Assembly (NCBI GenBank): GCA_903873415.1 | Contig: CAIQOK010000007.1 | Coordinates: 1 to 53,655 of the forward strand | Reading direction: 5' to 3' | From: an uncultured Verrucomicrobiota bacterium | GTDB lineage: Bacteria; Verrucomicrobiota; Verrucomicrobiia; Limisphaerales; CAIQOK01 | Length of the DNA stretch: 53,655 nucleotides | In this document: one piece after another, positions 3,582 through 32,409 of the stretch | Position numbering within the stretch: the stretch's first letter is position 1 | Layout of the letters: the number at the start of each line of letters is the position of its first letter | Program-made: the position numbers and the translations under genes | Notes under the pieces: generated by a model | Seen by the model: only the letters and a program-made list of their open reading frames with translations | What the model was told of the DNA's origin: nothing | Databases searched by the model: none

Positions 3582-4418
3582 TCAAAGCCTGTTGCGCCAA
3601 ATAGGCGTGGGATGCGAAACATCAAAACACACCCGTTGTTTCGGACTTTTCAGGGTGAAGATAGAATAACTAGTGGGCTTCATGCTGAAATGCCCGGCAG
3701 GAATCCGGCGGAGGCGGTGCATAAGAATCCAGAAAGGTTTCAAGCCCCTGACCCAGAGCGGTATCAGTTTTGCGGTGCGATCAGACTCCCGCTTCGCACT
3801 TGGGCTCAAGGCAAGATTTTCCCCAGTATCAGTGAAAACCGAAGTAAAAAAGTCAATGACTGCCATGGGCACCTTGTCGCGGATCAAGCCCCGAACCCAA
3901 TGCAGATCTCCGAGAACCCGCCAGCTCGTATCAAAAAAGAGCCCCCGATCTTGAATGACTTTACGACGAATAAAAAGGGAGCTGGTCAACACGGGAAACC
4001 TAAACCAGATGTGATTGGGGCTGGGAATCATGGAATGCCGATGACAGATGTAGCCGCCGTCCCCGTCCGTGACAATCGACCCCGCGAGCAGGACCTCGAT
4101 ATCGGGATGCTGCTCAAAAAAACCCTGCACCGCAGCCAGCGCGCCGGGTAAATACTGTTCATCGCAGTTGAGGTAGGCCAGGATGTCACCAGAAGCCCTA
4201 CGATAGCCCCGGTTCACCGCATCATACATCCCCTGATCCTTTTCGAAAAAGGCCTTCACGCGGGAATCCTTCGGCAGCCAGTCCTGGGTACCATCATCGG
4301 AACAGGAATCCTGAACGATATGCTCGAACTCAACCCCCTCCTGGTCGGCAACCGACGCGATACACAGCTTGAGCCATTCGGAACTGCGGAAGCTGGGAGT
4401 AATAATAGAAAACTTCAT
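3582..4418 (-). CDS. glycosyltransferase family 2 (copy B)
   Basis: A 278-residue paralogue of copy A. It has the same opening (MKFSIITPSFRSSEWLKLC), the same QDSCSDDGTQDWL segment and the same acidic motif in AYLNCDEQYLPGAL. The halves after about residue 130 differ more, which suggests the acceptor side has diverged while donor binding was kept. It is separated from copy A by 79 bases and lies downstream of the membrane glycosyltransferase gene. The start chosen is the ATG directly before the first beta strand. Confidence 0.85.
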   Translation of the reverse strand: MKFSIITPSFRSSEWLKLCIASVADQEGVEFEHIVQDSCSDDGTQDWLPKDSRVKAFFEKDQGMYDAVNRGYRRASGDILAYLNCDEQYLPGALAAVQGFFEQHPDIEVLLAGSIVTDGDGGYICHRHSMIPSPNHIWFRFPVLTSSLFIRRKVIQDRGLFFDTSWRVLGDLHWVRGLIRDKVPMAVIDFFTSVFTDTGENLALSPSAKRESDRTAKLIPLWVRGLKPFWILMHRLRRIPAGHFSMKPTSYSIFTLKSPKQRVCFDVSHPTPIWRNRL

Positions 4419-16392: not shown

Positions 16393-17618
16393 TTGTTACG
16401 GCCGACGACCTGACTGAAGACCGTCTTTATTTCGTGGAAGAAAGTGGGTTTGTCGACGCGTTTACGCTGCTGAATGGAGCCGAACTTGACCAGGCCAATG
16501 GCGGTGGCGAATTCCGGCTGGTCGAGCGCCGATTTCAAACCGCTGATGGAATTGGTTTTCCCAAGCGTGACGGGCATTTCCAGAATCTGTTCGGCCAAGG
16601 AGGCAATTTGAGGAATGCGGGCGGCGCCACCGCATAAAAACGCCCCGGACCGGAGGTAGTCGGAAAGGCCGGCCTGCTGCAGGTCCTGAACAATGAGATT
16701 GAAGATTTCCTCCAGCCGAAGGGCCATGATACGGCGCAGATTTTCCAGACTGATAATTTTAAGCGGCAGCCCCAGATCGCTAGAAATGGTGACCGTCTGG
16801 CCCTGATCGGTTGAATCCAAGAAAGCAGAGCCCCATTCCAGCTTGAGCTGTTCGGCCCGCCCCAGCGGGACTTTAAGACCGTAAGCCAGATCATTGGAAA
16901 TATGGTCTCCGCCCACCGCCAAAACACCGACGTATTTAATAACCCCATCGGCATAGACCACGTAGTCAGTCGTGCCGCCGCCGATATCAATCACCAGTGA
17001 TCCAAGTTCCTTTTGCTCGCTGTTGAGCAAGGCCAAGGAGGAAGCCAGACCGCTGAAAACAATCTCCTCTACCTCCAACTGAAGTCCTTTGACGGCCCGG
17101 ATGGCGTTTTGCAACCGGTTCAAATGGCCATGAACCACATGCACGTCCACTTCCAAGCGCCCGCCCAGCATTCCCACAGGGTCAATAATCCCATTGTGCC
17201 CATCCACCAGAAAATGCTGGCGCACCGCGTGAATGACCTGATGCTGGGCCGGGAGGTTGATGGTCTTGGCATTCTTGATCACATCCTGCACGTCCTCCGG
17301 CGAAATTTCCCGGTCGGCCGAAACCACCGGATGCACTCCACGATTATTGAATCCGCGAATGTGCGCGCCCGTAACCCCGAGATAAACACTGCGGATTTCC
17401 ACGTCGGCCATCTGCTCGGCCTCCACTATGGCATTGCGGATATCCTCCCCGGTGGCGGTGGCGTCACAAATCTCCCCCTTGCGCACCCCCCGTGATTTCG
17501 ACTGACCCAGGCCGACGATGGTCAACCCGGAAGAATCCGGATTCACTTCACCGACCATGACGCAGACCTTGGAAGTGCCTACTTCCAAACCGACGATGAT
17601 AGAAGAGGAATCAAACAT
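16389..17618 (-). CDS. ftsA: cell division protein FtsA
   Basis: A 409-residue actin-family ATPase that tethers FtsZ to the membrane. It shows VGLEVGTSKVCVMVGEV (phosphate 1), VIDIGGGTTDYVVYADG (phosphate 2) and GAFLCGGAARIP (adenosine motif). It ends in a short basic amphipathic stretch (FHEIKTVFSQVVGRNK) suited to membrane attachment. The ATG at 17618 lies 8 bases inside the end of ftsQ; longer in-frame starts would run far into ftsQ and read as shadow sequence. Stop overlaps the ftsZ start. Confidence 0.96.
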   Translation of the reverse strand: MFDSSSIIVGLEVGTSKVCVMVGEVNPDSSGLTIVGLGQSKSRGVRKGEICDATATGEDIRNAIVEAEQMADVEIRSVYLGVTGAHIRGFNNRGVHPVVSADREISPEDVQDVIKNAKTINLPAQHQVIHAVRQHFLVDGHNGIIDPVGMLGGRLEVDVHVVHGHLNRLQNAIRAVKGLQLEVEEIVFSGLASSLALLNSEQKELGSLVIDIGGGTTDYVVYADGVIKYVGVLAVGGDHISNDLAYGLKVPLGRAEQLKLEWGSAFLDSTDQGQTVTISSDLGLPLKIISLENLRRIMALRLEEIFNLIVQDLQQAGLSDYLRSGAFLCGGAARIPQIASLAEQILEMPVTLGKTNSISGLKSALDQPEFATAIGLVKFGSIQQRKRVDKPTFFHEIKTVFSQVVGRNK

Positions 17619-18576
17619 TTTTTTTGCGGGTTCGGGGCAGTTTGACGTTCTTTGGTATGGACTGGGGCAATAAACCAGCCTCCATGACACGAAGGGGAGG
17701 GTTATCCGCCACGGCCAAATCGAGCATGCCGATGATTTTATTGAGCTTGAGACATTCCTCATGCACCTTCCACCAGCGAAGCAGCTGGCGGTCGAAGTCA
17801 TCCAGCCCAAAGGTGATTTCACTCCCCTGCCCGCTGGTGACCACCAACACGCCCGGTTGGGAAACGTCCACCCGGCGCAACTCCACCGTCCCGGCCAAAG
17901 CCGAGCCGGCAAACGCATTGATCAAGTGCAAGGCACCCTGCACCGGAACAGACTCCACACGCCGGCCAGGCTGTAACTTGCTGGCATCCACACCCAAGAG
18001 CAAAGCAAGATCACTGTCCGGAACGGCCGCGGGAGCGGCACGCTGCCGAGGATCCAGGGGCTGCAGCACATACCCTTCGGCATCCAGCTGATAAACAACC
18101 AGATCCACCCCGCCGCCGGAGCGGGGGCGGGGAATGTTCACCTGTGCCACCGGCTCGCGCTCGGCCACACGCAGCCGAAGGGTGCCGGGCAGGATCCTCT
18201 CCACCGAGGCGGTCCGGATTCTGGGCACCAGTTCCAATGCCCGCTTAACACCCCCCAGATCCAAGGCAAAGAGGTTTTGGCCTAACTTGACTCCGCTCCA
18301 ACCCTTGAGTTGATCGATTGCTATCACTCCGTCAGTCTGGACATCCACGGTCTGAATGGCGAAGGCGGGGTTCTCATAGACAAATCGGTCCAGGGTCCAT
18401 TCTCCAACGCGCCAGAGGGCATAAAGACCGGCGACCGTGCCCAGAGACACGCTCAGAGCCAGAGCCAGCAGGCGGATCCGCGAGGCGCGCAGCTGGCTGG
18501 ATCGCAGTTTGACGTGGAGCACGTTCTGCGTGCGGCCCAGCCGCCGGTTTTTAGATTTTCGTTTGGACCGGAACAC
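17611..18576 (-). CDS. ftsQ: cell division protein FtsQ/DivIB
   Basis: A 321-residue bitopic membrane protein: a basic cytoplasmic tail, one membrane span at about residues 37-55, a POTRA domain (about 68-140, FAIQTVDVQTDGVIAIDQLKGWSG...) and a beta domain to about 290. It scaffolds the divisome with FtsL and FtsB in the periplasm. The start is GTG. It lies 21 bases after ddl and overlaps ftsA, the classical ddl-ftsQ-ftsA-ftsZ order. Confidence 0.92.
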   Translation of the reverse strand: MFRSKRKSKNRRLGRTQNVLHVKLRSSQLRASRIRLLALALSVSLGTVAGLYALWRVGEWTLDRFVYENPAFAIQTVDVQTDGVIAIDQLKGWSGVKLGQNLFALDLGGVKRALELVPRIRTASVERILPGTLRLRVAEREPVAQVNIPRPRSGGGVDLVVYQLDAEGYVLQPLDPRQRAAPAAVPDSDLALLLGVDASKLQPGRRVESVPVQGALHLINAFAGSALAGTVELRRVDVSQPGVLVVTSGQGSEITFGLDDFDRQLLRWWKVHEECLKLNKIIGMLDLAVADNPPLRVMEAGLLPQSIPKNVKLPRTRKKNV

Positions 18577-18597
18577 AAGAATTGAATTGAGCGCCTG

Positions 18598-19512
18598 CTA
18601 TTGATTGAAAGGTTTACGCCCCAACGCCAAGTCGACCATCCGCTGGCAGAGCGTTTCGTAATTGATGCCTGCGGCGGCGGCGGCCAACGGTAGCAAACTC
18701 GTCGGGGTCATGCCCGGCAAGGTGTTCACCTCGAGCACCACGGGCTCACCACTGCTCCGCACCATGACATCCACCCGGGCATAATCACGCCCGCCCACAG
18801 CCCGGAAGGCGCCCAGTGCCGCCTCTTGAATGCGCGCCGTCATGGCCGCATCCATCTGCGCCGGACAGAAATACTCGGTGTTGCCGGGTGTGTATTTGTT
18901 CCGATAATCGAACTGGCCTGATTTGGGCCGCACCTCCACCACGGGCAGGATCGTTCCGTCGAGTATCCCCACCGTGGTTTCGCGCCCGAGAATTCTTTCT
19001 TCCACGAGCAGTTGCGAATCATGCCGGAAGGCTTCCCGCAGCGCCTCAGTCCAATCCGCCACACGATCCACAAACTGGAGCCCGACACTGGAGCCCTGAC
19101 GCACCGGTTTGACGACCACGGGCGGCTGCCAACCCATGGGCCAAGGGGTTGTTTCCGAATCCACCACGGTAAATTTGGCGGTAGGGACACCGGCCAAAAC
19201 ACACTGTTGCTTGGTCAGAACTTTATCGAACGCGAGGCGGCTCGCCGTGGCATCGCTTCCTGTATAGGGAACGCCAATTTTGTCCAACTGCCCTTGCACC
19301 GTCCCGTCTTCGCCGTAGCTGCCGTGCAACGCCAGAAAAACAACATCCGTGGAAACCGGCAGCTCGAAGCAACCCTGCTGCGGATCCAACTCGGTAACTC
19401 CGTGCCCAAGCGATCGCAGTGCAGCCGCCACCCCCGCACCGGAACGCAGCGACACAGCACGCTCCGACCCGGCCCCCCCGAGCATGACCACAATGTTAAC
19501 CGGTTTCGACAT
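18598..19512 (-). CDS. ddl: D-alanine--D-alanine ligase
   Basis: A 304-residue ATP-grasp ligase joining two D-alanines for the peptidoglycan precursor. Motifs: LALHGSYGEDGTVQGQLD (about 59-76), the ATP-binding KPVRQGSSVGL, YARVDVMVRSSGEPVVLEVNTLPGMTPTSL holding the metal-binding acidic residues. A strong GGAGG ribosome-binding site (19517-19521) lies 4 bases before the ATG, the best one in the cluster, which suggests ddl is an independently strong translation point. Length is normal. Confidence 0.96.
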   Translation of the reverse strand: MSKPVNIVVMLGGAGSERAVSLRSGAGVAAALRSLGHGVTELDPQQGCFELPVSTDVVFLALHGSYGEDGTVQGQLDKIGVPYTGSDATASRLAFDKVLTKQQCVLAGVPTAKFTVVDSETTPWPMGWQPPVVVKPVRQGSSVGLQFVDRVADWTEALREAFRHDSQLLVEERILGRETTVGILDGTILPVVEVRPKSGQFDYRNKYTPGNTEYFCPAQMDAAMTARIQEAALGAFRAVGGRDYARVDVMVRSSGEPVVLEVNTLPGMTPTSLLPLAAAAAGINYETLCQRMVDLALGRKPFNQ

Positions 19513-19535
19513 CTTACCTCCACCTTTTCGGATCT

Positions 19536-20486
19536 TCAGGGTTCATCCCCGACAATTTTGACTTCCATCTGCAACTCGACAGCGCGGAGTGTGCGAACAC
19601 GCTCTTTGACCAATTCAATAAGCTGCAGCACATCCCCGGCGGTCGCCCCTCCGTCATTGACGATGAAATTCCCGTGCTCCGCCGAAACCACGGCACCACC
19701 GACCCTCGTGCCCTTGAGTCCGAGTTCATCAATTAATTTGCCGGCGGACATCCCGTCCGGATTTTTGAAAGCGCAACCCGCACTGGGCGCGCTGGGCTGC
19801 GCCGACCAACGTTTTTCGTTGAATGTGCTCATCCGCCGCTCAATCGCCGCGCCCAAGTCAGAGCGTCCGCGCAGCCTGGCGGCCAGCGCAATATGGTTTT
19901 GCAGAGTGGCGCAGGTGCGATAGGTGAAAGTGATTTCACCGGACTTGAGATCGCGCGTGGTTCCGCCAAAGTCCATCACCCGGACTCCTGCAATCAATTC
20001 GGCGATAGCCCCGCCCATGGCGCCGGCATTCATATGGAGTGCTCCTCCCACGCTGCCTGGAATACCCGCCAGAAACTCAAGCCCGGCCACTCCGGCGCGT
20101 CGGGCCGCATTGGCAACATCCTTCAGCCGGGCGCCTGCCCCGCAGATCAGAGTTTCCCCCTCCACCGCAATCCGGCTGAATTCAGGATGCGTCAGGCAAA
20201 TCACTACCCCGCGAAAACCGCCGTCCCGAACGACCAGATTGGAGCCTCGACCGAGCAGGAAAAATTTGAGCCGGGATTCGGCGCAAAATCTCAGAATGAT
20301 GGCAAGATCCAACTCGGAAACCGGCTCGACGTAAATATCCGCCGGCCCGCCCACCCGCAGCGTGGTGCGCTTAGCCATCGGCTCATTGCCGCGAATCAAG
20401 GTGCCGGCGGCCAGACGCCCCGCCAGCGTCGCTAAAAACGGGTGCTCTTTGGGATGCGCTATTTCCAGAAGAGAGCCTGGTGTCAT
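19536..20486 (-). CDS. murB: UDP-N-acetylenolpyruvoylglucosamine reductase
   Basis: A 316-residue FAD enzyme that reduces UDP-GlcNAc-enolpyruvate to UDP-MurNAc in the cytoplasm. LRVGGPADIYVEP and LLGRGSNLVVRDGGFRGVVI bind FAD, and LEFLAGIPGSVGGALHMNAGAMG is the conserved core. The proton donor position, usually Ser in GSxFKNP, is Cys in AGCAFKNP, as in some type II enzymes. The ATG at 20486 overlaps the murG TGA as ATGA. In most dcw clusters murC lies directly before murB; here it is missing. Confidence 0.95.
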   Translation of the reverse strand: MTPGSLLEIAHPKEHPFLATLAGRLAAGTLIRGNEPMAKRTTLRVGGPADIYVEPVSELDLAIILRFCAESRLKFFLLGRGSNLVVRDGGFRGVVICLTHPEFSRIAVEGETLICGAGARLKDVANAARRAGVAGLEFLAGIPGSVGGALHMNAGAMGGAIAELIAGVRVMDFGGTTRDLKSGEITFTYRTCATLQNHIALAARLRGRSDLGAAIERRMSTFNEKRWSAQPSAPSAGCAFKNPDGMSAGKLIDELGLKGTRVGGAVVSAEHGNFIVNDGGATAGDVLQLIELVKERVRTLRAVELQMEVKIVGDEP

Positions 20487-21673
20487 GCCGCCCCCTTTGC
20501 CCCCACCCCATGGCGATGGGCGGAATGGTTGCAACCGCAGGAAGAGCGATGACGGTGACGAGGTTTGGCGGAACCAGACTGCGCCAAAAGCTGCAACATG
20601 CTTTCAGCGATTTGCTCAGCAGCCTTGGGAGAATGCCAGGCATCCAAAGCCGTCTGCATACGTTGACGCAACGAGGAATCCTCAAACAAACCGGGCAAAA
20701 TTTTGGCGAGCATCTCCGGCGCCGCCTTTCCCTGCTCGAGTAATCGCGCCGCGCCGGTTTCAACAAAAACCCGGGCATTAAACTCCTGATGATTGTCCGT
20801 CGCCGCCGGATATGGAACCAGAACAGTCGGAAGGCGCATTGCGGCAATTTCCGCAAGCGACGATGCCCCCGCACGACTCACCGCAACAGTGGCTGCCCCG
20901 AGCGCAATTTCCATTTCGCTTAAGAAAGGATGAACAACAGCTTTCACCCCGGCGGCTTTACAAGCCCGACTTGCCTTTTCGGCGTCGTTGGGGCCGGTAA
21001 GGTGAAGCAATTGCCACCCTTTCCGGGCCAGCAACGGGAGAGTGGCCAGCACCAGTTCGTTGACACCTCCTGCTCCCTGACTTCCTCCCATCACCAATAA
21101 AACCGGACGATCGGAATCAAGTCCCAGCAACTTGCGGCAGCGGACGGGGTCCTGCGATTGAAACTGAGGACGAACCGGAGTGCCGGTGACCACGACCCGA
21201 CGGCTGAAGAGCTGGGAGCCGGCTTGGGGAAACCCGACAAAAGCTTGATCCACCCACCGGGCAAGCCAGCGGTTGGCCTTGCCGGGGATGGTGTTGGATT
21301 CGTGCACAAACGTTTTTGCCCCTATGGACCGGGCGGCACAGAGCGGCGCGGCGCCGGTGAAACCGCCCATGGCGAGAAGCGCCGCAGGTCGGAGCTGCCT
21401 AAAAGCCCGGCGAGCTCCGGCCAACGACTTAAGAAAACTTGCTCCAAAGGCGACATAGTTGCCCCCCTGCAACCCCACAGCAGGAAGTGTGATCACACTC
21501 CATTCTTGCGGAGCGTTTTTCAGGGATTGCTGATCCACCTCTTTTGGGGAGACGATCAGAGCCAGCGTGCAGCCCCGCTTTGCCAACTGCCCGGCCACCG
21601 CCAAGCCCGGAAAGAGGTGCCCCCCGGTGCCCCCACAGGCTATCGCAATCAAAGGTGCCGGCCCCGTCATCAT
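20483..21673 (-). CDS. murG: lipid II synthase (UDP-GlcNAc transferase) MurG with His/Cys-rich tail
   Basis: A 396-residue family 28 GT-B glycosyltransferase adding GlcNAc to lipid I at the inner membrane face. ACGGTGGHLFPGLAVA (12-27) is the lipid-substrate glycine loop and VMGGSQGAGGVNELV the donor-side loop. It is about 30 residues longer than usual at the C-terminus: the last 28 residues contain PRHRHR, SCGCNHSAHRH and no hydrophobic core, a possible metal-binding tail. Two adjacent ATGs (21673 and 21670) overlap the ftsW stop; I chose the first (ATGATGA). Normal length otherwise. Confidence 0.95.
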   Translation of the reverse strand: MMTGPAPLIAIACGGTGGHLFPGLAVAGQLAKRGCTLALIVSPKEVDQQSLKNAPQEWSVITLPAVGLQGGNYVAFGASFLKSLAGARRAFRQLRPAALLAMGGFTGAAPLCAARSIGAKTFVHESNTIPGKANRWLARWVDQAFVGFPQAGSQLFSRRVVVTGTPVRPQFQSQDPVRCRKLLGLDSDRPVLLVMGGSQGAGGVNELVLATLPLLARKGWQLLHLTGPNDAEKASRACKAAGVKAVVHPFLSEMEIALGAATVAVSRAGASSLAEIAAMRLPTVLVPYPAATDNHQEFNARVFVETGAARLLEQGKAAPEMLAKILPGLFEDSSLRQRMQTALDAWHSPKAAEQIAESMLQLLAQSGSAKPRHRHRSSCGCNHSAHRHGVGAKGAA

Positions 21674-22788
21674 ACGGTTTGCAGCCTCCCCATCGAGGTC
21701 TCCGCAGGATAGGATTGGGTGAACCGAGAGCCGGAAGCGATACTGATCAAAACCCCCACACAAGTCAGCATCACGAGAAGATTCGAGCCGCCATAGCTGA
21801 TGAAGGGCAATGGCAACCCCTTGTTGGGCAGGGCACTAGTCACCACGCCGATATTGATAAACGCCTGCATCCCGATCAGGAATGTGATCCCCGAACCGAG
21901 CAACTGGCCAAAAGTATCCGGCGCCTTCATGGAGATGTGAATCCCGCAACAAACAATCGCGATAAAGGAAACAATCACCAAAACCGTGGCTACGAACCCC
22001 AGTTCTTCCCCGATGATAGACAGGATGAAGTCAGTCTGGTGCTCCGGAACAAAACCCATCTTCTGCCGACTGTTACCCAACCCCAACCCAAACCAGCCGC
22101 CAGAGCCCAGTGCGAGCATGGCTTGGTAGGCCTGGTAACCGACTCCGTCTTTGTGTTCCTCGAGATAGAGCCAGCTGAAAATCCGCTTCATCCGCATGGG
22201 ATCGTGGAAAATGGAGACAGCCAACCCGCCAACCGCTAAAAAGCCCGGAAGGGCGAACTTTGTCCACGGCACCCCGGCCACAATCAACATGACGCCACTC
22301 ACCACGGCCAGTAGAATCGTGGTCCCCCGGTCCGGCTCCACATAAATGAGCCCCAAGAGCAGCCCGCCAAAAAGCGCGGGAACCGCGATCCCACGCTTCC
22401 AAGTGGGCATATGCCGTTTGAAACGATCCCCGTACCAAGCCATAGCCACAATCAGGGCAAGTTTGGCGAATTCCGAGGACTGAAAAAGGAAGCCGTGAAA
22501 ACCCACCCATCTGCGGGCGCCATGACTGGCGTGACCAACATGCGGAATGAGCACGGCCAAGAGCAGCAGGATGGCAACGGCGTAAAGTCCGCCGGCTATT
22601 TTTTTGAAGCCCCTATAATCCGTGGAAGCGACTGACACACAGGCAACCACCCCAACCCCGCCCCAAATGAGCTGCCGTAAAAGCAGGCCGCCGCCATTCT
22701 CGTTCATTTTACAGCTGTAAAGCATGACCATGCCCAAAGCCAGCAGGGCTGCCACGAAAAAGACCAGACATGTAACGGCGGTTTTCAT
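21670..22788 (-). CDS. ftsW: septal peptidoglycan glycosyltransferase FtsW
   Basis: A 372-residue SEDS protein with about ten membrane spans that polymerises glycan strands with its partner FtsI. Conserved stretches are FQSSEFAKLALIVAMAWYGDR, VEPDRGTTILLAVV, PEHQTDFILSIIGEELGF and KGLPLPFISYGGSNLLV near the C-terminus. The ATG at 22788 directly precedes the first membrane span (MKTAVTCLVFF). The upstream in-frame ATG at 22842 would translate a perfect hairpin (22804-22830) and is rejected. Confidence 0.95.
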   Translation of the reverse strand: MKTAVTCLVFFVAALLALGMVMLYSCKMNENGGGLLLRQLIWGGVGVVACVSVASTDYRGFKKIAGGLYAVAILLLLAVLIPHVGHASHGARRWVGFHGFLFQSSEFAKLALIVAMAWYGDRFKRHMPTWKRGIAVPALFGGLLLGLIYVEPDRGTTILLAVVSGVMLIVAGVPWTKFALPGFLAVGGLAVSIFHDPMRMKRIFSWLYLEEHKDGVGYQAYQAMLALGSGGWFGLGLGNSRQKMGFVPEHQTDFILSIIGEELGFVATVLVIVSFIAIVCCGIHISMKAPDTFGQLLGSGITFLIGMQAFINIGVVTSALPNKGLPLPFISYGGSNLLVMLTCVGVLISIASGSRFTQSYPAETSMGRLQTV

Positions 22789-22803
22789 CGGATACTCAGG
22801 CCT

Positions 22804-22830
22804 GCTGCCGGACCGGATCGGTCCGGCAGC
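22804..22830 (-). promoter_or_regulatory. 11-bp perfect hairpin in the ftsW leader
   Basis: GCTGCCGGACC (22804-22814) and GGTCCGGCAGC (22820-22830) are exact reverse complements with a five-base loop. The hairpin lies between the LysM gene stop (22846) and the ftsW ATG (22788). No T-run follows, so it may be a transcript-processing or attenuation structure rather than a terminator. Function is inferred from position only. Confidence 0.55.
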
Positions 22831-22845
22831 GCAGCCGAGCATAGG

Positions 22846-23628
22846 TCAAGCCCCCGGGGCCGCCGGAGCAGGTGCCGACGCGGGGATGTTTACCGGTGCC
22901 GGCGCAGACTCAACCGGAGCTGCCACTGACTTGGCAGGGATCTTAAGCTTCTGCCCCACCTTGATTTTGTCGGTGGTGAGACTATTTGCTGAACGCAAGG
23001 CTTTGACCGAAACGCCAAGTGATTTAGCGATCTTACTCAAATTATCACCCGATTTAACCACATAGGGGTCGCCCCCGGCGGCCGCATCGGCCGGCGCAGC
23101 CGTTTTAACGACAGCAGCAGCGGCGGCACCGGCTACTGCGGGAGCTGCAGCCGGAATCTGGATTTTCTGGCCGATCTTCAATTTTTTGGGCTGAACGCTC
23201 GGGTTGGCCTCTTGGATCGCTTTGACTGTCACCCCGAACTTTTTGGACAGGGTGGAAAAAGAATCCCCCTTGGCGATGGCGTATTCTTGGGCTGAAGTAG
23301 GGACGACAGGGGGCTGGGCGACGACCGCAGGCGGGGCGGGGTCGGACACGACTGCCGGCGGCACATTGGTGGTCGTAGCCGCTGCAGTCCCAACAATGTT
23401 GGTGTCCACTGAGGGGGAATTCGTCGTATCCATCGCCGGTTGGAGAGGCTGGGTGGCGTCCTTGTCCGCCTCGGCGGGCTTGCGACAGCCCGGGACCAAG
23501 AGGGCCAAGGCCAAGGGGATGATGTTGATGGCGAGGACGCAGAAAAACGCCTTTTTGAGACGTGTGCGGTTCTGGAGTTTTGCCTCCACCAACGGGTTTT
23601 GGGGTGGCAATGGGTTGGGATTATTCAT
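22846..23628 (-). CDS. membrane-anchored protein with two LysM domains
   Basis: A 260-residue protein. Residues 1-24 are cytoplasmic and basic, residues 25-46 form a single membrane span ending LVPGC (Cys48, an imperfect lipobox), followed by a Pro/Ala/Val/Thr-rich linker. LysM domains lie at about 115-159 (YAIAKGDSFSTLSKKFGVT) and 188-231 (YVVKSGDNLSKIAKSLGVS), separated by an Ala-rich linker; the C-terminus is again Pro/Ala-rich. LysM binds peptidoglycan, so this is probably an envelope protein anchoring the cell wall. It occupies the position where murD is expected between mraY and ftsW. No catalytic domain is present. Confidence 0.85.
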   Translation of the reverse strand: MNNPNPLPPQNPLVEAKLQNRTRLKKAFFCVLAINIIPLALALLVPGCRKPAEADKDATQPLQPAMDTTNSPSVDTNIVGTAAATTTNVPPAVVSDPAPPAVVAQPPVVPTSAQEYAIAKGDSFSTLSKKFGVTVKAIQEANPSVQPKKLKIGQKIQIPAAAPAVAGAAAAAVVKTAAPADAAAGGDPYVVKSGDNLSKIAKSLGVSVKALRSANSLTTDKIKVGQKLKIPAKSVAAPVESAPAPVNIPASAPAPAAPGA

Positions 23629-24032
23629 GGGATTTGGCGACGTGTCGTCCTTTATGTGAGGTGTAGTGGGTGGGTTGAAGCGCGCTGCGGTTTCTCCTCA
23701 AAAAAACGCGGCGAAAAATCTGATTGGGTTGCTTTATGGCTGTGGTGGTTCACTGATCCGCTGATTTCACCGGGCATATTGGGGGTGGCGAAGCGCGCAC
23801 CCCAACTAATTGATTCCATTGAATGGCAATAACTTAAGGCTTTTCGAGTTGTTTCGAATCAGGACATAAGCCGACGAGGCATCGGAAAGCCAACCATACT
23901 CGCCATGAAGCGCTGCAAACAGTGCCGCTTCGGGCATTGGTTCTAGCAATGTTGCCGCAGGGGTGCAAGGAGGAAAGGGATTTCCCGCCAGACTATTTTT
24001 CATATGCCTCAAGTCATGGATTGCATTTGGGT
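23629..24032. other. 404-base gap in the dcw cluster, no recognised gene
   Basis: The gap separates mraY from the LysM gene in a cluster whose other genes mostly touch. A minus-strand open frame to 23806 could start inside mraY or at an ATG near 24003 (about 65 codons); it has no recognised domain and shows no MurD signature. The AT-richer composition near 23800-23880 and a GGGGTG...CACCCC inverted pair near 23784-23805 are the only features. Confidence 0.5.
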
Positions 24033-25217
24033 TTAGCGGATCTTCAAAGTGCTTAGGGCCACCACAGCGCAGAGAAAACAAAGAATGAAAAAGCGCATCA
24101 CCACTTGGGACTCGTGCCAGCCCTTTTTTTCAAAATGATGGTGGATTGGGGCCATCAAAAACATGCGTTGAGGCTTGCCTGTGCGCCGCCGGGTCCACTT
24201 GAAATAGCCTTTTTGTAGAATCACCGAGGCGGCTTCCATCACAAATACACCCCCGGCAATCACCAGCACCAGCGGCTGATGAATTAGGATTGCCACCATC
24301 CCCAAGGCACCACCCAATGCTAACGACCCCGTGTCACCCATGAAAACCTGAGCAGGGTGGCAGTTATACCAGAGAAAACCCAAGCCTGCTCCAATCAGCG
24401 CGGCGCAAAACACCGTCAGCTCCCCAGCCCCGGACACATGAGGGATTTGCAAGTAGGCCGCCGCTTTAATATTGCCCGCCAGATAGGTCAGGATCAGGAA
24501 CACAAACGACACAATCAGGGTGCAACCAATGGCCAGACCATCAAGACCGTCGGTGAGATTCACCGCATTTGAACTGCCCACAATGGTCAACATCGTCACC
24601 ATTAAACCCAGAACGACGCCGATGGACAGGGGATATTTATAAAACGGCACCATCAGGGTGGTGGCGAGGTTGCTGACGAGAACCGTGCGGCTCTCCGGAA
24701 CCCGCAACTCACTATGCATGGGGAGCTTCCAAATATAGAAGGCGACAAAACCGGCAAGCAGGATCTGGACCCATAGTTTCACCTTGGGCGTGGTGCCCTC
24801 TCCGGTCTGACGGGTGATCTTGGCCCAGTCATCATAAAACCCCAATCCGGTGAGGACTAAAACCGAAAAAAGAGTGAGTTGAATCAAGGTGTTCCACTGC
24901 GCCCAGAGCAAGGTCGTCACGTTGAGCGTCATGACGATCAAAACCCCGCCCATTGTAGGGGTTCCTTTTTTGTCCCACCCCCCTGTACCCGACCCGGCGG
25001 TCTGATGGGCGATGTCCACATATTCCTGCCCAAACTTGAGTTTCTTGAGCCAGAGAATGACTTTGGGACCGAGCCACCAGCTCAGAGCCAGAGCGGTAAG
25101 GGCCGCACCAGCACTTCGGACAGTGATGTAACTGAAGAGGCGCAAAGGGGAAAGACGCCGGGCCCACTCAGTCCCCGCCGACCACTTCAACAATTGCTGG
25201 CTCAGGTAGAAAACCAT
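24033..25217 (-). CDS. mraY: phospho-N-acetylmuramoyl-pentapeptide transferase
   Basis: A 394-residue polytopic enzyme (about ten membrane spans) that makes lipid I by moving phospho-MurNAc-pentapeptide to undecaprenyl phosphate. Hallmarks are KKGTPTMGG (83-91), FYDD (127-130), NAVNLTDGLDG (217-227), FMGDTGS (292-298) and APIHHHFEKKG (356-366). The ATG follows the murF TAA with no gap. Length is slightly above average because of a longer N-terminus and periplasmic loop. Confidence 0.97.
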   Translation of the reverse strand: MVFYLSQQLLKWSAGTEWARRLSPLRLFSYITVRSAGAALTALALSWWLGPKVILWLKKLKFGQEYVDIAHQTAGSGTGGWDKKGTPTMGGVLIVMTLNVTTLLWAQWNTLIQLTLFSVLVLTGLGFYDDWAKITRQTGEGTTPKVKLWVQILLAGFVAFYIWKLPMHSELRVPESRTVLVSNLATTLMVPFYKYPLSIGVVLGLMVTMLTIVGSSNAVNLTDGLDGLAIGCTLIVSFVFLILTYLAGNIKAAAYLQIPHVSGAGELTVFCAALIGAGLGFLWYNCHPAQVFMGDTGSLALGGALGMVAILIHQPLVLVIAGGVFVMEAASVILQKGYFKWTRRRTGKPQRMFLMAPIHHHFEKKGWHESQVVMRFFILCFLCAVVALSTLKIR

Positions 25218-26612
25218 TTAGTTTTTCCTCCCCTCGGCAGCCCTGAGAACTTCGGTGATTTGCTCCAGGCGCGTTGCACGGGAAGCCTTGAGCAACAATA
25301 AATCGCCCTCCTTTACGAAACCTTTCACCGCCGCCGCCGCCAGTCCCACTTCTGAAAACTCAAAGACACGGTTGAGTCCCGCCTGGCGGGCTCCGCGCGC
25401 CATCGCCCCGGCCATGCGCCCGACGGCAAACAACTGGCCCATACCCAACTCCGCCGTGCATCGCCCCACCTCCTCGTGGGCGGCCTCGCTCTGCAAGCCC
25501 ACTTCGGCCATGTCCCCCAGCACCACCACCCGGCGGCCCTTGCAGGGCAAATCCTTCATGGTTTGCAGCGCGGCCAACATGGAGTCGCTGTTGGCGTTGT
25601 AGGCATCGTCCAGCACCCGCACCCCCCCGATTTCTGAAAGCTGCAGGCGCATTTTGGCAGGCAGACACGCCGCCAATCCGCGTTCAATTTCCCCGCGATT
25701 CAAACCCAACTCGGCCCCCACAGCGATGGCAAACATAGCGTTGACCACCTGATGCCGCCCCAGCAAATGGATCCGGTAATCCCCCGTCACCAATGCCACC
25801 GGGGCATCGACCCGGAAGGAAACCCCGTGGGTGTCCAATCGCACGTTTCGGACGCGCCAGTCGTTTTTCGCCCCCAACCCGATCCGCACCACCGTCGCAG
25901 CAGTGCGCGCCGCGATCACAGCGGCCCACTCACTGTCCCCGTTGAGGAACAGCTTGCCTGCGGCGGGCAGAGCTTGAGCCAGCGCCCCCTCTTCCCGGGC
26001 CACACCAGCCAGATCTTGAAAAAACTCCAGATGTTCCCGGCCGATACTGGTCACCACCCCCAAGTTTGGCCGGACCATTTCCACCAAAGGAGTCAGTTCT
26101 CCCGGATGATTGGTTCCAGTTTCCAACACAGCAGCCTGATGCCCTTTGTCGAGCCGCAACAAAGTCACCGGCACACCGATCTCATTGTTAAAACTGGCTT
26201 CACTGGAAAGGGTCGCCAATCGCTGCTTGAGTACGGAAGCGATCAGATCTTTTGTGGTCGTTTTGCCATTGGAACCACCCACGGCTATGACCGGCAATGA
26301 AAAATCCTTGCGATAGGCCGCCGCAAATGCGCCTAGGGCGGCCCGCGGGCTGGCCACTGCGACCACCGGACATTTAAGCCCGGTGCCGGAAAGATGTTCC
26401 CGGGCTACGAGCACACCCGCCACGCCCTTTTTCTGTGCATCCTGAAGAAAGTCATGCCCGTCGAAGCGCTCCCCCTTGAGTGCCCAAAACAAATCCCCCG
26501 CCCGCAACTCTCGCGAGTCGGTGCAAACGCGGTCAATCACTGTTTCGGGCGGGCCTTGAACAACGGCCCCTCCGCAAGCAGCCGCAATAAAATTCAAACT
26601 CCGAGATTCCAT
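25218..26612 (-). CDS. murF: UDP-MurNAc-tripeptide--D-Ala-D-Ala ligase
   Basis: A 464-residue Mur ligase adding D-Ala-D-Ala to the UDP-MurNAc-tripeptide. GGSNGKTTTKDLI is the ATP P-loop (about 112-124), followed by LETGTNHPGEL, LLGRHQVVNAMFA and DDAYNANSDSM (substrate and carbamylation/ATP regions). D-Ala-D-Ala-type specificity is read from overall family similarity and from being next to mraY. I chose the ATG at 26612 because MurF proteins start close to this strand; an in-frame TTG at 26642 that overlaps the ftsI stop (TTGA) is the alternative. No murE lies between ftsI and murF. Confidence 0.94.
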   Translation of the reverse strand: MESRSLNFIAAACGGAVVQGPPETVIDRVCTDSRELRAGDLFWALKGERFDGHDFLQDAQKKGVAGVLVAREHLSGTGLKCPVVAVASPRAALGAFAAAYRKDFSLPVIAVGGSNGKTTTKDLIASVLKQRLATLSSEASFNNEIGVPVTLLRLDKGHQAAVLETGTNHPGELTPLVEMVRPNLGVVTSIGREHLEFFQDLAGVAREEGALAQALPAAGKLFLNGDSEWAAVIAARTAATVVRIGLGAKNDWRVRNVRLDTHGVSFRVDAPVALVTGDYRIHLLGRHQVVNAMFAIAVGAELGLNRGEIERGLAACLPAKMRLQLSEIGGVRVLDDAYNANSDSMLAALQTMKDLPCKGRRVVVLGDMAEVGLQSEAAHEEVGRCTAELGMGQLFAVGRMAGAMARGARQAGLNRVFEFSEVGLAAAAVKGFVKEGDLLLLKASRATRLEQITEVLRAAEGRKN

Positions 26613-26638
26613 ACTTTGTAAATTCCGAACCGGTTCGA

Positions 26639-28528
26639 TCAAGGCGCTATGGACGCTTTGGGTCCATGTTCGCCGCCATCCGCCAATCCTCCCGGTTTCC
26701 CCGGGGCGTCAATATCCGAGGGCACGTGCAGATAACTGGCCAGCCGCTCGGCAATCTGAGCAAACGCGGGGGCGGCCACCAAGCCGCCGTAATGCCCGTC
26801 CTTGGGCTCGTCCAACACCACTGAAATGCAGACTTCGGGGTTATCCGCCGGGAAAAAACCAATGAACGAAGAGACGAACTTGCCATGGACATAGACCCCG
26901 CCCTCGGCTTTTTGCGCCGTGCCGGTCTTGCCCGCCACGGTGTAGTGCTTCAAGGCCGCCTTCTCCGCGGTACCCTCGTGCGAAACCACCGTCTTGAGGG
27001 CCTCGACCATCTGCCTGGCGGTCGACTCACTCACCACGCGGGCAACCGGCTGCGGCGAATACTTGACCACGACCTCTCCAGCTCCATCCTCCAGATGATC
27101 AACCAGCATGGGACGCATGCGGACCCCTTTGTTTGCAATGGTGCACATGGCCATGAGCATCTGCAGCCGGGTGACCGCAATGCCCTGCCCCATCGGGATT
27201 TGGGCCACCGAGACCTTGCTCCACTTTTTCACCGGCAAGGAAATCCCGCGCACCTCCCCTGGCAGGGGCAAACCGGTGCGCTCCCCGAATCCGAAGGCGG
27301 AAATGTAATCATAGAGCCTGCCGGCACCCATTTTAATCCCGATTTTTGCCGCGCCAATGTTGGACGATTTGGTGATGATGCTCTTGACCGACTCCCTGCC
27401 GAGGGATTCATGGTCGTGCAACACCTTCCCGGCGTATGAAAAATGGCCGTGCTCACAGTCGAACTGGTCATTAAGATTGACCGTGGCGTCATTCAGCGCC
27501 CCTGAAACCACGACGATCTTGAAGGTCGACCCCGGCTCCACCACGTCGGTGATGACACGGTTTTTTCGCGCCTCCGGAACCGCGCGCCCGGCAATATTCG
27601 GGTCAAAATTAGGCAGGGTGGCCATTGCCAAGATTTCCCCAGTGCGAGGGCGAACGACAATGCCGGTGATACTGACCGGGCTGTGTTTCTGCATCGCCTC
27701 AGCAAGGGCGGTTTCAACAATGTTCTGCACCACAGAATCTATGGTCAGCACCACATTCAATCCATCACGCGACTCCACATCCTGCTGCCGGGCGGAAACC
27801 ATCTCCCGCCCCTCCCGGTCTTTTTCAGTCACCCTCCAGCCGGGCACTCCGCGCAGCTTGGAGTCGAGGGTGAGCTCAATCCCCTCGCGCCCGCAAATGT
27901 CGTTTCGCAAGTGGTTGTCCACCTCGCGCTCCTCGGTTTGCGCAAAGCCCAGCACATGAGCCGCAAGCATATGATTTGGATAAACACGAACCGGATAATC
28001 CTGGGAATAAACCGCTTTCTGCCGAAGATTCCGGAAGAAATTGCGCTCGGACCGACGCAGTTTTTTCTCATCGATACCAAAGGTTAGATTGGTCATGGCC
28101 GCCTGAATCTGCGGCCAGATTTCCGGCGCGACAGGCTGTTTCAACAGCACGTAGGTGTTGGTGACCGTTTCCCCCTTGGAATTAACCCGCACGTGGGCCA
28201 AGCGGCGGACCAGATCGGCCTCCTCCATCTGGAGCAGCGGAGCCAGGACCCGGGCCACCTCTGCCTGTCGATTGACAATCAGGCTGGGGTCCGCACAGAC
28301 GGACTTGGCAAAGAGACTGGTGGCGAGCAGCGATCCCTTCGCATCCAAAATATCGCCCCGCCGCGGCTGGAAATAAGTCTCCCGGCGGGTGTTTTGCCGT
28401 GCCAAGGCGCTGAGTTGCGAGTGGCGCAGGATCTGCAGGTCAAACAATCGATAAGCCAAGCAACCTAGCAGAGCCACCAAAAGCACCGCCGGCAAGACCA
28501 ACCGTTTATGTTGCAGTTTTTCGAACAT
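26639..28528 (-). CDS. ftsI: septal transpeptidase FtsI (penicillin-binding protein 2/3 family)
   Basis: A 629-residue class B penicillin-binding protein. One membrane span lies at residues 11-28, a dimerisation/pedestal domain (RRGDILDAKGSLLATS, 57-72) follows, and the transpeptidase domain has STFK (334-337, catalytic Ser334), SSN (388-390) and KTG (534-536). It crosslinks septal peptidoglycan, partnered with FtsW. There is no C-terminal PASTA domain; the last 30 residues are Gly/Pro-rich and probably disordered. Confidence 0.95.
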   Translation of the reverse strand: MFEKLQHKRLVLPAVLLVALLGCLAYRLFDLQILRHSQLSALARQNTRRETYFQPRRGDILDAKGSLLATSLFAKSVCADPSLIVNRQAEVARVLAPLLQMEEADLVRRLAHVRVNSKGETVTNTYVLLKQPVAPEIWPQIQAAMTNLTFGIDEKKLRRSERNFFRNLRQKAVYSQDYPVRVYPNHMLAAHVLGFAQTEEREVDNHLRNDICGREGIELTLDSKLRGVPGWRVTEKDREGREMVSARQQDVESRDGLNVVLTIDSVVQNIVETALAEAMQKHSPVSITGIVVRPRTGEILAMATLPNFDPNIAGRAVPEARKNRVITDVVEPGSTFKIVVVSGALNDATVNLNDQFDCEHGHFSYAGKVLHDHESLGRESVKSIITKSSNIGAAKIGIKMGAGRLYDYISAFGFGERTGLPLPGEVRGISLPVKKWSKVSVAQIPMGQGIAVTRLQMLMAMCTIANKGVRMRPMLVDHLEDGAGEVVVKYSPQPVARVVSESTARQMVEALKTVVSHEGTAEKAALKHYTVAGKTGTAQKAEGGVYVHGKFVSSFIGFFPADNPEVCISVVLDEPKDGHYGGLVAAPAFAQIAERLASYLHVPSDIDAPGKPGGLADGGEHGPKASIAP

Positions 28529-28696
28529 TCAAAAGGACCAGACGCCAGCGGCGGCCGGCTTCTCTTCCGGGAACATCGCGGACCATGGAAGACCAAGTTT
28601 CATTCGATTCAAGGCTGTAATCCGGTACCTGTATAGCCGTCCCGCCCCCAGACCAAGGTGGGACCGGCACCCAATCCCGCCGGCAGGCCAATGAGT

Positions 28697-29080
28697 TTAG
28701 CGCAAGACCGCCGCCCCAGCCCTCTGCGCATACACCCGTTCGGGTTCGGTGCGGATCACCGGCTCTGCCGTAGGCTCGCTCAACCGCCATACTTGAGAGG
28801 GCTGGGGCGGGATCAGGCCAAGATTGAGTTCCTTGACCCGCGCCTCCAAAAAAGAAGGCGAACTCATCGTGGCAAACTGCCTCTTGAGTTTCTCGTTCTG
28901 CTTTTTCAAATCACCCAGCCGGAGTTCCCGCTGCTTGATCTGCTGGTCGAGCTCCGCGATCTGACTTTTTTGCCAGACATAGCCCACGCCCGATCCGCCA
29001 ATGACAACACACAGAAGAAAGGCCTTGATCGCCGGCCCGAACCGGATCGCCGCCGACTGATGTTTGCGATTTCGCGCCAT
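28697..29080 (-). CDS. FtsL-like small bitopic division protein
   Basis: A 127-residue protein with a short basic N-terminus, a single membrane span at about residues 15-35 and a coiled coil (about 37-75, KSQIAELDQQIKQRELRLGDLKKQNEKLKRQFATMSS), then a Pro-rich tail. FtsL and FtsB have this architecture but little sequence conservation. The position between rsmH and ftsI is the usual FtsL place. The ATG at 29080 starts one base after the rsmH TAA; longer upstream frames are inside rsmH. Confidence 0.8.
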   Translation of the reverse strand: MARNRKHQSAAIRFGPAIKAFLLCVVIGGSGVGYVWQKSQIAELDQQIKQRELRLGDLKKQNEKLKRQFATMSSPSFLEARVKELNLGLIPPQPSQVWRLSEPTAEPVIRTEPERVYAQRAGAAVLR

Positions 29081-29081
29081 A

Positions 29082-30029
29082 TTAAATTTTTTCCAATACC
29101 CGTAACTGCGCGCTGCGACTGCGGGGGTTTTCCGCCAATTCCACCGAGCCGGCCGCCACCGCCTTGCGCTGAACCCAGCGCGCTTGGGGATGGCAGGGCA
29201 CCCGCAACTCCGGCACATCCACCGGCCCGCCGGCCTTATAATCCCGGCTACGCTCACGCCCAAACTCTTTCACCACCCGGTCCTCAAGGGAGTGAAACGT
29301 GATCACCGCCAGACGCCCGCCGGGCTTCAATAAACTCAACGCCCCGTCCAGACCCCGGCGCAGCGAGCCGATCTCGTCGTTGACGGCGATGCGCAAGGCC
29401 TGGAAAACTTTGGTCGCCGGATGCGACTGTTTTCCGTGCCTTGGGGCGAGCCTTTCAATCAACTCCGCCAGCTGCCGCGTTGTCATAAAGCGACGCAGCT
29501 CACGGTCGTGAACAACCGCCTTGGCAAAGCGCCGCGACTCCCGCTCGCCACCCAGCTCCCAAAACATCCCAGCCATCGACTCGGCATCAAGCGTATTTAC
29601 CAATTCCGCCGCAGTGAGCGTCTGCCGCTGATCCATCCGCATGTCCAGAGGACCGTCCTGCTGAAAGCTAAAGCCCCGGACGGCCTCGTCCAACTGCGGC
29701 GAACTCACACCCAGATCCAACAGAACCCCGTCGCAACTTCCGGCAGGAACCCATTCCGCCAAGCCGGAGAAATTTCCGCGGCGTATTTCAAAGCGCCCGG
29801 CATACTGTGCCAGCCTGCGCTCTGCCGCCCCGATCGCAGCCCCGTCTCGATCACAACCAAATAGCCAACCGTTGGGCGAACTAGCCCTCAAGATGGCCTC
29901 GGCGTGCCCGCCACCCCCAAGTGTGCCATCGACATAGCGACCGTTTTTCCGGGGATTCAGCGCGCCCAGCACCTCCGAAAGCAAAACAGGCTTGTGCGCA
30001 AATTCCACGGGTAAAAATCCCTTCCTCAA
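29082..30029 (-). CDS. rsmH: 16S rRNA (cytosine(1402)-N(4))-methyltransferase
   Basis: A 315-residue S-adenosylmethionine-dependent methyltransferase (also called MraW) modifying 16S rRNA C1402. HKPVLLSEVL (12-21), YVDGTLGGGGHAEAIL (32-47, the SAM glycine loop), DGVLLDLGVSSPQLDEAVRGFSF and VITFHSLEDRVVKEF are all typical. The start overlaps the end of the upstream unknown gene (ATGA). Length is normal. Confidence 0.96.
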   Translation of the reverse strand: MRKGFLPVEFAHKPVLLSEVLGALNPRKNGRYVDGTLGGGGHAEAILRASSPNGWLFGCDRDGAAIGAAERRLAQYAGRFEIRRGNFSGLAEWVPAGSCDGVLLDLGVSSPQLDEAVRGFSFQQDGPLDMRMDQRQTLTAAELVNTLDAESMAGMFWELGGERESRRFAKAVVHDRELRRFMTTRQLAELIERLAPRHGKQSHPATKVFQALRIAVNDEIGSLRRGLDGALSLLKPGGRLAVITFHSLEDRVVKEFGRERSRDYKAGGPVDVPELRVPCHPQARWVQRKAVAAGSVELAENPRSRSAQLRVLEKI

Positions 30030-30636: not shown

Positions 30637-31101
30637 TCACTCCATCAACTTGAAGGCTTCCGGCGCCATGACGGCATCCGCCGCACGGACTTTTTCGTAA
30701 CGTTCCGGATTCCAGATTTCAAATAAATCCAACAGTCCCACCAAAACGGCCTCGCCCTCAATCCCGGCGGCTTTGGCCATGCCCTCAGGCACACAAATCC
30801 GCCCCACCTTGTCGAGCGCTACCTGCACCGATTCACTGCCGATAAAGCGCTTTAAAACAACCTTTTGCGGATCGCCATTCGGCATGGCGTCGATGTCACT
30901 ATAGAGCTTGGCCATCTTTTCCGGGGGCAAAGCGCGCAAACAAGGACCCAAATTAGACTTCGGCCAGAGAATCAACGTGAATTCAAAACCACTCCGGGAC
31001 GGCCGCCACTTGGCCGGCACCTGCACACGGCGCTTCTCATCCAAACCATGCTGGTAGGAAGAGTTGTAATACGTCTTTTCGCTGGCCGCACTCAGTTCCA
31101 T
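30637..31101 (-). CDS. mraZ: transcriptional regulator MraZ
   Basis: A 154-residue protein with two SpoVT-AbrB-like halves: HGLDEKRRVQVPAKWRPS (about 19-36) and ALDKVGRICVPEGMAKAAGIE (about 95-115), each holding the DxKxR-type beta-hairpin that binds DNA. MraZ forms rings that bind tandem TGGG-type repeats in its own promoter and controls the dcw operon. The operator is visible just upstream at 31137-31171. First gene of the cluster. Confidence 0.95.
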   Translation of the reverse strand: MELSAASEKTYYNSSYQHGLDEKRRVQVPAKWRPSRSGFEFTLILWPKSNLGPCLRALPPEKMAKLYSDIDAMPNGDPQKVVLKRFIGSESVQVALDKVGRICVPEGMAKAAGIEGEAVLVGLLDLFEIWNPERYEKVRAADAVMAPEAFKLME

Positions 31102-31136
31102 GACTTATTCGCAGCAGAACTCCGTATCCCAAATTG

Positions 31137-31172
31137 CCCCACTGCGCCCCTAATTTACCCACTATCCCCCAC
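31137..31172 (-). promoter_or_regulatory. MraZ operator: four 10-bp-spaced TGGGN repeats
   Basis: On the minus strand TGGGG, TGGGT, AGGGG and TGGGG follow each other with exact 5-base spacers (units start at 31171, 31161, 31151 and 31141), one per DNA turn. MraZ is known to bind direct repeats of TGGGN with 5-base spacers, so this is very probably its operator. The third unit is degenerate (AGGGG). It overlaps the promoter at 31152-31180. Confidence 0.85.
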
Positions 31173-31180
31173 CCCGTCAA
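31152..31180 (-). promoter_or_regulatory. sigma70-type promoter of the dcw operon
   Basis: Minus-strand TTGACG (31180-31175) and TAAATT (31157-31152) are separated by 17 bases. The -10 element matches the consensus at four of six positions. It gives a predicted transcript start near 31145 and a leader of about 44 bases before the mraZ ATG. The MraZ repeats cover the spacer and the -10, so binding would block transcription. Confidence 0.7.
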
Positions 31181-31196: not shown

Positions 31197-31216
31197 TTAT
31201 CCAGAACTTATTCACA
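31197..31216 (+). promoter_or_regulatory. two DnaA-box-like sites
   Basis: TTATCCAGA (31197-31205) and TTATTCACA (31208-31216) lie 11 bases apart. The second fits the TTWTNCACA consensus exactly and the first differs at one base. They lie 17 bases or more upstream of the dcw -35 element, a place where DnaA could act on transcription. A third, weaker copy TTATTCGCA is at 31105-31113. Functional binding is inference. Confidence 0.45.
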
Positions 31217-31338: not shown

Positions 31339-32409
31339 ATGCAAACAGCTCAATTTGACTACTTTTTACCACCAGAACTGGTCGCTCAAGTTCCAGCAAT
31401 CGAGCGCGATGCCTCCCGCCTGCTGGTACTCAATCGATCCAGTGGACGCTTGGAGCACCGGAAGTTTCGGGACCTCCCCACCTACCTTCAGCCCGGCGAT
31501 GTGCTCGTACTCAACAACTCCCGGGTCGTGCCAACCCGCCTGCATGGTAGCAATCTGACAACCGGAGGCGGCTTTGAGCTACTGCTGGTCAGGGAAAACG
31601 GGCTAAATGACTGGTGGTCCCTCGTCAAACCAGGAAAACGGGCCCGGATTGGAACGGAGATCGGGCTGCTGAACGCCCTGGGAAAACCAGTTAACGTGAG
31701 AGCCAAGGTGCTGGATACCAATGAGGACGGCCATCGCAGACTGCGGTTCTCCGGTGTGGAAAACATCCGGACAAGTCTGGAGGATCTAGGCCAACTTCCG
31801 CTGCCTCCCTACATCCAACGCGACCGCCCGGAACCACAAGACAGACAGCGCTACCAGACCGTATTCGCCGAGCCAGCCGGATCTGTGGCCGCTCCCACGG
31901 CAGGGTTGCATTTCACCCCCGAATTACTCGCTGAAATCCGAGCCCGGGGCATTGAGGTACACTTCATCACGCTGCATGTCGGCCTTGGAACATTCGCCCC
32001 CGTCAAAGCCGAAATACTCACAGAACATCGTATGCATGAAGAGCGCTTCGAACTCAGCGCAACCGCCGCCCAAGCCATAAATCTGGCCAAAAAGGAACAC
32101 CGCCGCGTTATCGCTGTAGGCACCACGACTGTGCGCGTTCTGGAAAGCAGCGCAAGCCCCCAATCGGGCGAACTGATCCATGGTGCTGGGAGCACGAATA
32201 TTTTCATTTATCCACCGCGCAACTTCCGAGTGGTCGATGCCCTACTAACCAATTTCCACCTGCCCCGCTCCACCCTGTTGATGCTGGTCAGCGCCTTTGC
32301 CGCCCCAGGGCAGACGATCGGGCGCGAATTAGTCATGAAAACCTACGCCGAAGCCATACGTGAACGTTACCGTTTTTTTAGCTATGGCGATGCCTTGCTC
32401 GTATTGTGA
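31339..32409 (+). CDS. queA: S-adenosylmethionine:tRNA ribosyltransferase-isomerase
   Basis: A 356-residue enzyme of queuosine synthesis that transfers and isomerises ribose from SAM to 7-aminomethyl-7-deazaguanine at tRNA position 34. FDYFLPPELVAQVPAIERDASRLLVL, VLNNSRVVPTRLHG, PPYIQRDRPEPQDRQRYQTVFAEPAGSVAAPTAGLHFTPELL and TNFHLPRSTLLMLVSAFA are family motifs. Full length. It is divergent from mraZ and overlaps the next gene (GTGA). Confidence 0.96.
   Translation: MQTAQFDYFLPPELVAQVPAIERDASRLLVLNRSSGRLEHRKFRDLPTYLQPGDVLVLNNSRVVPTRLHGSNLTTGGGFELLLVRENGLNDWWSLVKPGKRARIGTEIGLLNALGKPVNVRAKVLDTNEDGHRRLRFSGVENIRTSLEDLGQLPLPPYIQRDRPEPQDRQRYQTVFAEPAGSVAAPTAGLHFTPELLAEIRARGIEVHFITLHVGLGTFAPVKAEILTEHRMHEERFELSATAAQAINLAKKEHRRVIAVGTTTVRVLESSASPQSGELIHGAGSTNIFIYPPRNFRVVDALLTNFHLPRSTLLMLVSAFAAPGQTIGRELVMKTYAEAIRERYRFFSYGDALLVL

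Follow-up and report, generated by a model that had tools for sequence, protein, structure and literature searches.

We suggest that the promoter of the dcw cluster in this bacterium is subject to two controls: it is likely limited by MraZ, the product of its own first gene, and coupled through DnaA to the initiation of replication. An array of MraZ-type repeats runs across the core promoter, and a tandem pair of DnaA boxes lies upstream of its -35 hexamer. The array, the promoter match, their register, their conservation, the boxes and the tandem form shared with a site upstream of dnaA are all read directly in the DNA. Binding by the two proteins, repression by MraZ and any effect of DnaA, with its sign, are what we infer from them.

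The window, that is the whole 53.7-kb stretch of DNA analysed here, is part of contig C7 of a 3.8-Mb genome in 189 contigs. The close relatives of this genome in the named genome collection are Limisphaerales (Verrucomicrobia subdivision 3), such as Pedosphaera and Limisphaera. The genes that matter for the argument are the following.

30637-31101, minus strand: mraZ, the first dcw gene (PF02381, E=1.4e-12).
15100-30029, minus strand: the remaining dcw cluster, from scans of the ORFs (mraW, ftsL-like, ftsI, murF, mraY, LysM protein, ftsW, murG, murB, ddl, ftsQ, ftsA, ftsZ).
31339-32409, plus strand: queA, the divergent neighbour of mraZ (PF02547, E=2.9e-129).

The first-pass annotation of this DNA had placed an MraZ operator just upstream of mraZ, and the position holds, since the gene at 30637-31101 is confirmed, by family match and structural alignment, as mraZ at the head of the dcw cluster. 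PF02381 on its own scored just the C-terminal half of the protein, and the NCBIfam MraZ matches are under their equivalog cut-offs. The solved MraZ 1N0E aligns with the window MraZ over residues 16-140, with both halves covered, and the D and R of the D...R motif in each half (D21, R25 and D97, R101) are invariant across 29 sequences including that of E. coli. Two relatives carry paired mraZ-like genes in tandem (G013:C257:7269-8307 and G047:C71:28349-29399). Further along the cluster, the FtsZ of the window (15100-16392, minus strand) is divergent, with 235.6 bits for TIGR00065 against a cut-off of 295.2, and reads GGGSGSG where the usual FtsZ motif is GGGTGTG. A LysM protein (22846-23628) sits between mraY and ftsW, and no murE, murD or murC was recognised among the scanned dcw genes from ftsI to ftsZ (15100-28528, minus strand). 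Elsewhere in the window, two similar glycosyltransferase-like ORFs adjoin each other on the minus strand (2654-3502 and 3582-4418), as after tandem duplication.

Just upstream of mraZ there are five tandem direct units at exact 10-bp steps, each composed of a 5-nt unit and a 5-nt spacer. On the mraZ strand the region reads TTGACGGGG TGGGGGATAG TGGGTAAATT AGGGGCGCAG TGGGGCAATT TGGGATACGG, with the elements placed as follows.

31175-31180, minus strand: -35 hexamer TTGACG, from the sigma-70-like search.
31167-31171, minus strand: MraZ unit U1, TGGGG, inside the -35/-10 spacer.
31157-31161, minus strand: MraZ unit U2, TGGGT, whose final T also opens the -10.
31152-31157, minus strand: -10 hexamer TAAATT, from the sigma-70-like search.
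31147-31151, minus strand: MraZ unit U3, AGGGG, at the predicted start; the degenerate unit of the first-pass annotation.
31137-31141, minus strand: MraZ unit U4, TGGGG, within the predicted leader.
31127-31131, minus strand: MraZ unit U5, TGGGA, in register, within the predicted leader; overlooked before.

The promoter proposed earlier, TTGACG-17-TAAATT, was found again at 31180-31152 of the minus strand as the sole sigma-70-like match in the intergenic region, where shuffled sequences give 0.2. With 7 nt counted from the -10, the predicted start falls at about 31145. The array spans the spacer (U1), the predicted -10 (U2), the predicted start (U3) and the leader (U4-U5). The four TGGGN-type units described before are all present and their 10-bp spacing is exact, but the count is five, as U5 had been missed.

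TGGG is exact in four of the five units, with 19 of 20 letters matching. None of 200 shuffles reaches the score of the array, the alternative periods of 8, 9, 11 and 12 score far below the 10-bp period, and within the window the array upstream of mraZ is the best of its type. Chance origin is ruled out by the shuffles, by the other periods and by the relatives described below. In the whole genome, the four-unit pattern occurs with one mismatch only at mraZ and at C7:5809-5842, inside a coding frame. Its 21 matches in total, vs 24 for the reversed pattern, are at background, and a wider MraZ regulon in this genome was rejected on these counts.

The mraZ upstream regions of relatives were gathered by a genome search and a scan of the named genomes, giving 116 distinct regions. 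TTGAC lies 8-12 bp before U1 in 108/116 relatives, which gives the register. In 108 Limisphaerales regions exact TGGG is found at U1 in 72%, at U2 in 31%, at U3 in 64% and at U4 in 70%, these four values being somewhat inflated because the register was picked by best fit to the core consensus. Beyond the core the frequency falls to 16% at U5 and 6% at U6, and it is 0% at the half-step positions. At a match of at least three letters of four, U2 is present in 75% and U5 in 41% of the 108 relatives, while 49 cases have four such units as their longest run and 19 have five. By this alignment, U1-U4 are a conserved core whose register with TTGAC is fixed, and U5 is an optional extra. The first-pass annotation had asked whether unit spacing and number are kept in related genomes. 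The 10-bp spacing is kept, as the in-register units against empty half-steps demonstrate; the number is kept as far as the four core units go, the fifth being only optional.

The degenerate unit needs a similar correction. AGGGG does stand at U3 of the window, but in the relatives it is U2, overlapping the -10, that is degenerate. Their U2 usually reads TGGTTAAAAG, a compromise between the unit and the -10, and their U3 is usually TGGGGCGTTG, with the consensus TGGGGCG. Judged against these sequences, AGGGG in the window is a local change. Outside Limisphaerales the layout of TTGAC and array recurs in many loci, with the units drifting. In four more distant phylum members with AT-rich mraZ upstream regions (L265, L283, L284 and L292) there are 10-bp arrays of the TAGG type, as if the specificity of MraZ had drifted there.

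Hence, the earlier interpretation as an MraZ operator is supported, and it was incomplete, with both U5 and the DnaA-box pair missed. The operator is real as a sequence element, and the function that we propose for it reads as follows. MraZ would bind the in-phase TGGG array along one face of the DNA. Covering the spacer, the -10, the start and the early leader, it would block RNA polymerase and thereby exert negative feedback on mraZ and on the division and cell-wall genes behind it. One could propose instead that MraZ activates dcw here by remodelling the promoter DNA, with no repression, and activation by MraZ is reported in some bacteria. We regard this as very unlikely, given that the units lie on the -10 and the predicted start, positions at which a bound protein would normally keep RNA polymerase out. 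Repression by MraZ is also what passages of PMC7761207 and PMC8475190 describe for E. coli and M. genitalium.

A second input besides the presumed repression is suggested by three boxes in the same intergenic region.

31208-31216, plus strand: DnaA box TTATTCACA (TGTGAATAA on the mraZ strand), exact consensus.
31197-31205, plus strand: second DnaA-type box TTATCCAGA, 2 bp from the first and one base off consensus.
31105-31113, plus strand: third DnaA-type box TTATTCGCA, one mismatch, just before the mraZ start codon.

The tandem pair TTATTCACA and TTATCCAGA (31197-31216) is located 36 bp before the mraZ -35, outside the coordinates of the first-pass annotation. In the relatives the upstream element is TGTGAATAA-CT-TTTGAATAA, that is two boxes in a single orientation, 2 bp apart; TTTGAATAA (reverse TTATTCAAA) is the consensus of the second box, which is often off the DnaA consensus. 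Exact TTATNCACA occurs 114 times in the 116 mraZ upstream regions vs 1.24 in shuffles. The upstream element has an exact first box in 78/116 relatives and a box with at most one mismatch in 94/116; the exact upstream box is absent from 38/116. Close to the gene, 57/116 relatives have a box with at most one mismatch no more than 40 bp from the start codon (shuffled mean 3.3). Beyond Limisphaerales, a box is present in a minority of the loci examined.

The frequent departure of the second box from consensus might mean that the TGTGAATAA element binds another regulator with a site resembling the DnaA box. We consider this distinctly unlikely, as the 9-mer equals the DnaA-box consensus TTATNCACA (PMC4447404) and in the same genomes dnaA is preceded by the same tandem form. 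In the genome of the window, dnaA is on contig C184 and its upstream region carries TGTGAATAACTGGTGAACAA, the same tandem form as at mraZ. The 900 bp upstream of dnaA in 30 relatives, this genome included, hold 22 exact boxes vs 0.44 in shuffled sequences. All share one orientation, lie roughly 330 to 400 bp before dnaA, and in most cases have a second box at the same 11-bp step as at mraZ. The pair there resembles that at mraZ in the order of the boxes (TGTGAATAA, then the second), in the 11-bp step and in the orientation, and differs in its distance of about 330-400 bp from the gene.

It is the tandem form alone that is special: a single TTATTCACA has 14 sites in the genome vs 10 for the reversed pattern and is thus ordinary. 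A search of the genome with the tandem pattern TGTGRATAANNNNTGRAYAA, allowing up to two mismatches, gave two exact sites, at mraZ and at dnaA, and two others at two mismatches. As TGTGRATAANNNNTGRAYAA was chosen after the mraZ and dnaA sites were known, the exact match at both is partly by construction. This caveat does not touch the lack of any other site under two mismatches in this genome, nor the counts in other genomes. Across 58 Limisphaerales genomes there are 40 exact tandem sites vs 2 for the reversed pattern. Position or the neighbouring ORF assigns at least 12 of the 40 to mraZ and no fewer than 18 to dnaA.

The distance between the boxes and the promoter is also constrained. Measured from the first box to TTGAC, two values dominate, 36 bp with 24 cases and 46 bp with 26; most others fall within 35-40, and the interval 41-44 is empty. 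We make no claim of strict helical phasing for the boxes, as 14/76 cases at 38-40 bp are off the 36/46 phase, and the phasing is suggestive only. Placed on a quick tree of MraZ, the 46-bp state takes several changes to explain; L124, a 36-bp case, is nested in a well supported group whose other members are at 46 bp.

This register bears on two other readings of the boxes. The array may be an ordinary MraZ operator whose upstream 9-mers bind or titrate DnaA, as a sink or a secondary site of replication control, with no part in transcription. Other bacteria do have sites that titrate DnaA, and such a role would suit a genome in which the tandem form occurs just twice, once upstream of dnaA. However, titration would need no register with the promoter, and the element stands at a nearly fixed 36 or 46 bp from the mraZ -35, and there is a further recurrent box at the start codon of mraZ. 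The sink reading is therefore disfavoured, and we hold it to be unlikely.

Alternatively, the upstream boxes might serve the divergent queA promoter and not mraZ, queA being the divergent neighbour in the window and in 65/79 boxed loci. Against it, no divergent queA could be detected upstream in 11 boxed loci, several of which have more than 1.2 kb of upstream sequence, and this already disfavours the boxes as a queA element. The exact box is also absent in 25 loci that do have a divergent queA, the intergenic region yielded no sigma-70-like promoter directed at queA, and the boxes are in register with the -35 of mraZ. We give a role at queA very little credence.

We thus return to DnaA acting on mraZ. 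Through the tandem pair upstream of the -35 and the weaker box at the start codon, DnaA would act on the dcw promoter, so that dcw output would follow replication initiation. The centre of the pair lies about 61.5 bp before the predicted start in the window and about 71.5 bp in the 46-bp relatives. These are the usual sites for activators that touch RNA polymerase from upstream. DnaA is accordingly placed here as a probable upstream activator of dcw, where the sign is a guess from these positions. More generally, we lean, with moderate confidence, toward the view that dcw and dnaA of Limisphaerales share a dedicated tandem DnaA-box module, and that at this two-input promoter DnaA would directly set dcw transcription and MraZ would limit it. 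If true, such a promoter would couple replication initiation to the expression of division genes.

Of the known MraZ operators, that of E. coli is close in form. The E. coli mraZ1p promoter and its MraZ operator are credited to Eraso et al. 2014 in passages of PMC7761207 and PMC8475190. In the genome sequence of E. coli MG1655 we read three like units, TGGGAAATTG TGGGGCAAAG TGGGAATAAG, at 10-bp steps before mraZ. Both operators consist of TGGGN direct repeats with this step upstream of mraZ, and the E. coli unit TGGGGCAAAG is close to U4 of the relatives, TGGGGCAAAA. However, the three E. coli units are all downstream of the -10, whereas the five of the window begin in the spacer and cover the -10. 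The 234 bp that precede mraZ in E. coli contain no exact TTATNCACA. The MraZ site of the Burkholderia cenocepacia promoter PmraBc has four 7-nt repeats with 3-nt spacers, downstream of the -10 and across the start site (PMC7761207). It shares with the window the 10-bp period and the overlap with the start site of the dcw operon, here a predicted one; unlike it, the array of the window also lies over the spacer and the -10 and has a fifth unit. The Mollicutes site, (AAAGTGKN3)3, is attributed to Fisunov 2016 in a passage of PMC5282649. It is likewise made of 10-bp direct repeats, and the unit of the relatives, when read as AAAGTGG, shares its GTG core. Unit sequence and copy number differ, and the DnaA boxes are a feature of the window. 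By its sequence, the operator of the window belongs with those known from E. coli and Burkholderia, as a variant placed across the core promoter. It indicates that an MraZ operator can lie over the core promoter itself, with four units as the conserved core.

For the DnaA input, we found no published description of DnaA boxes at an mraZ promoter in the open-licence papers searched. Boxes alone do not prove regulation, because those upstream of ftsZ in E. coli have no role in ftsZ transcription (review PMC8203912). The shared box pair beside an MraZ-interleaved core promoter would be a concrete and testable coupling point, and a genetic system exists in Verrucomicrobium spinosum, a relative in the phylum outside Limisphaerales (PMC12283558). 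The nearest precedent is in B. subtilis, where, according to a passage of PMC8203912 citing Goranov 2005, DnaA is bound in vivo at the promoter region of ftsL. There ftsL is in one operon with rsmH (mraW) and pbpB (PMC11019786), so DnaA is found at an operon with rsmH, ftsL and pbpB. The B. subtilis case is one of binding in vivo, whereas in the window the putative DnaA input is deduced from the conservation of a box pair and from its near-fixed register relative to a promoter interleaved with MraZ units.
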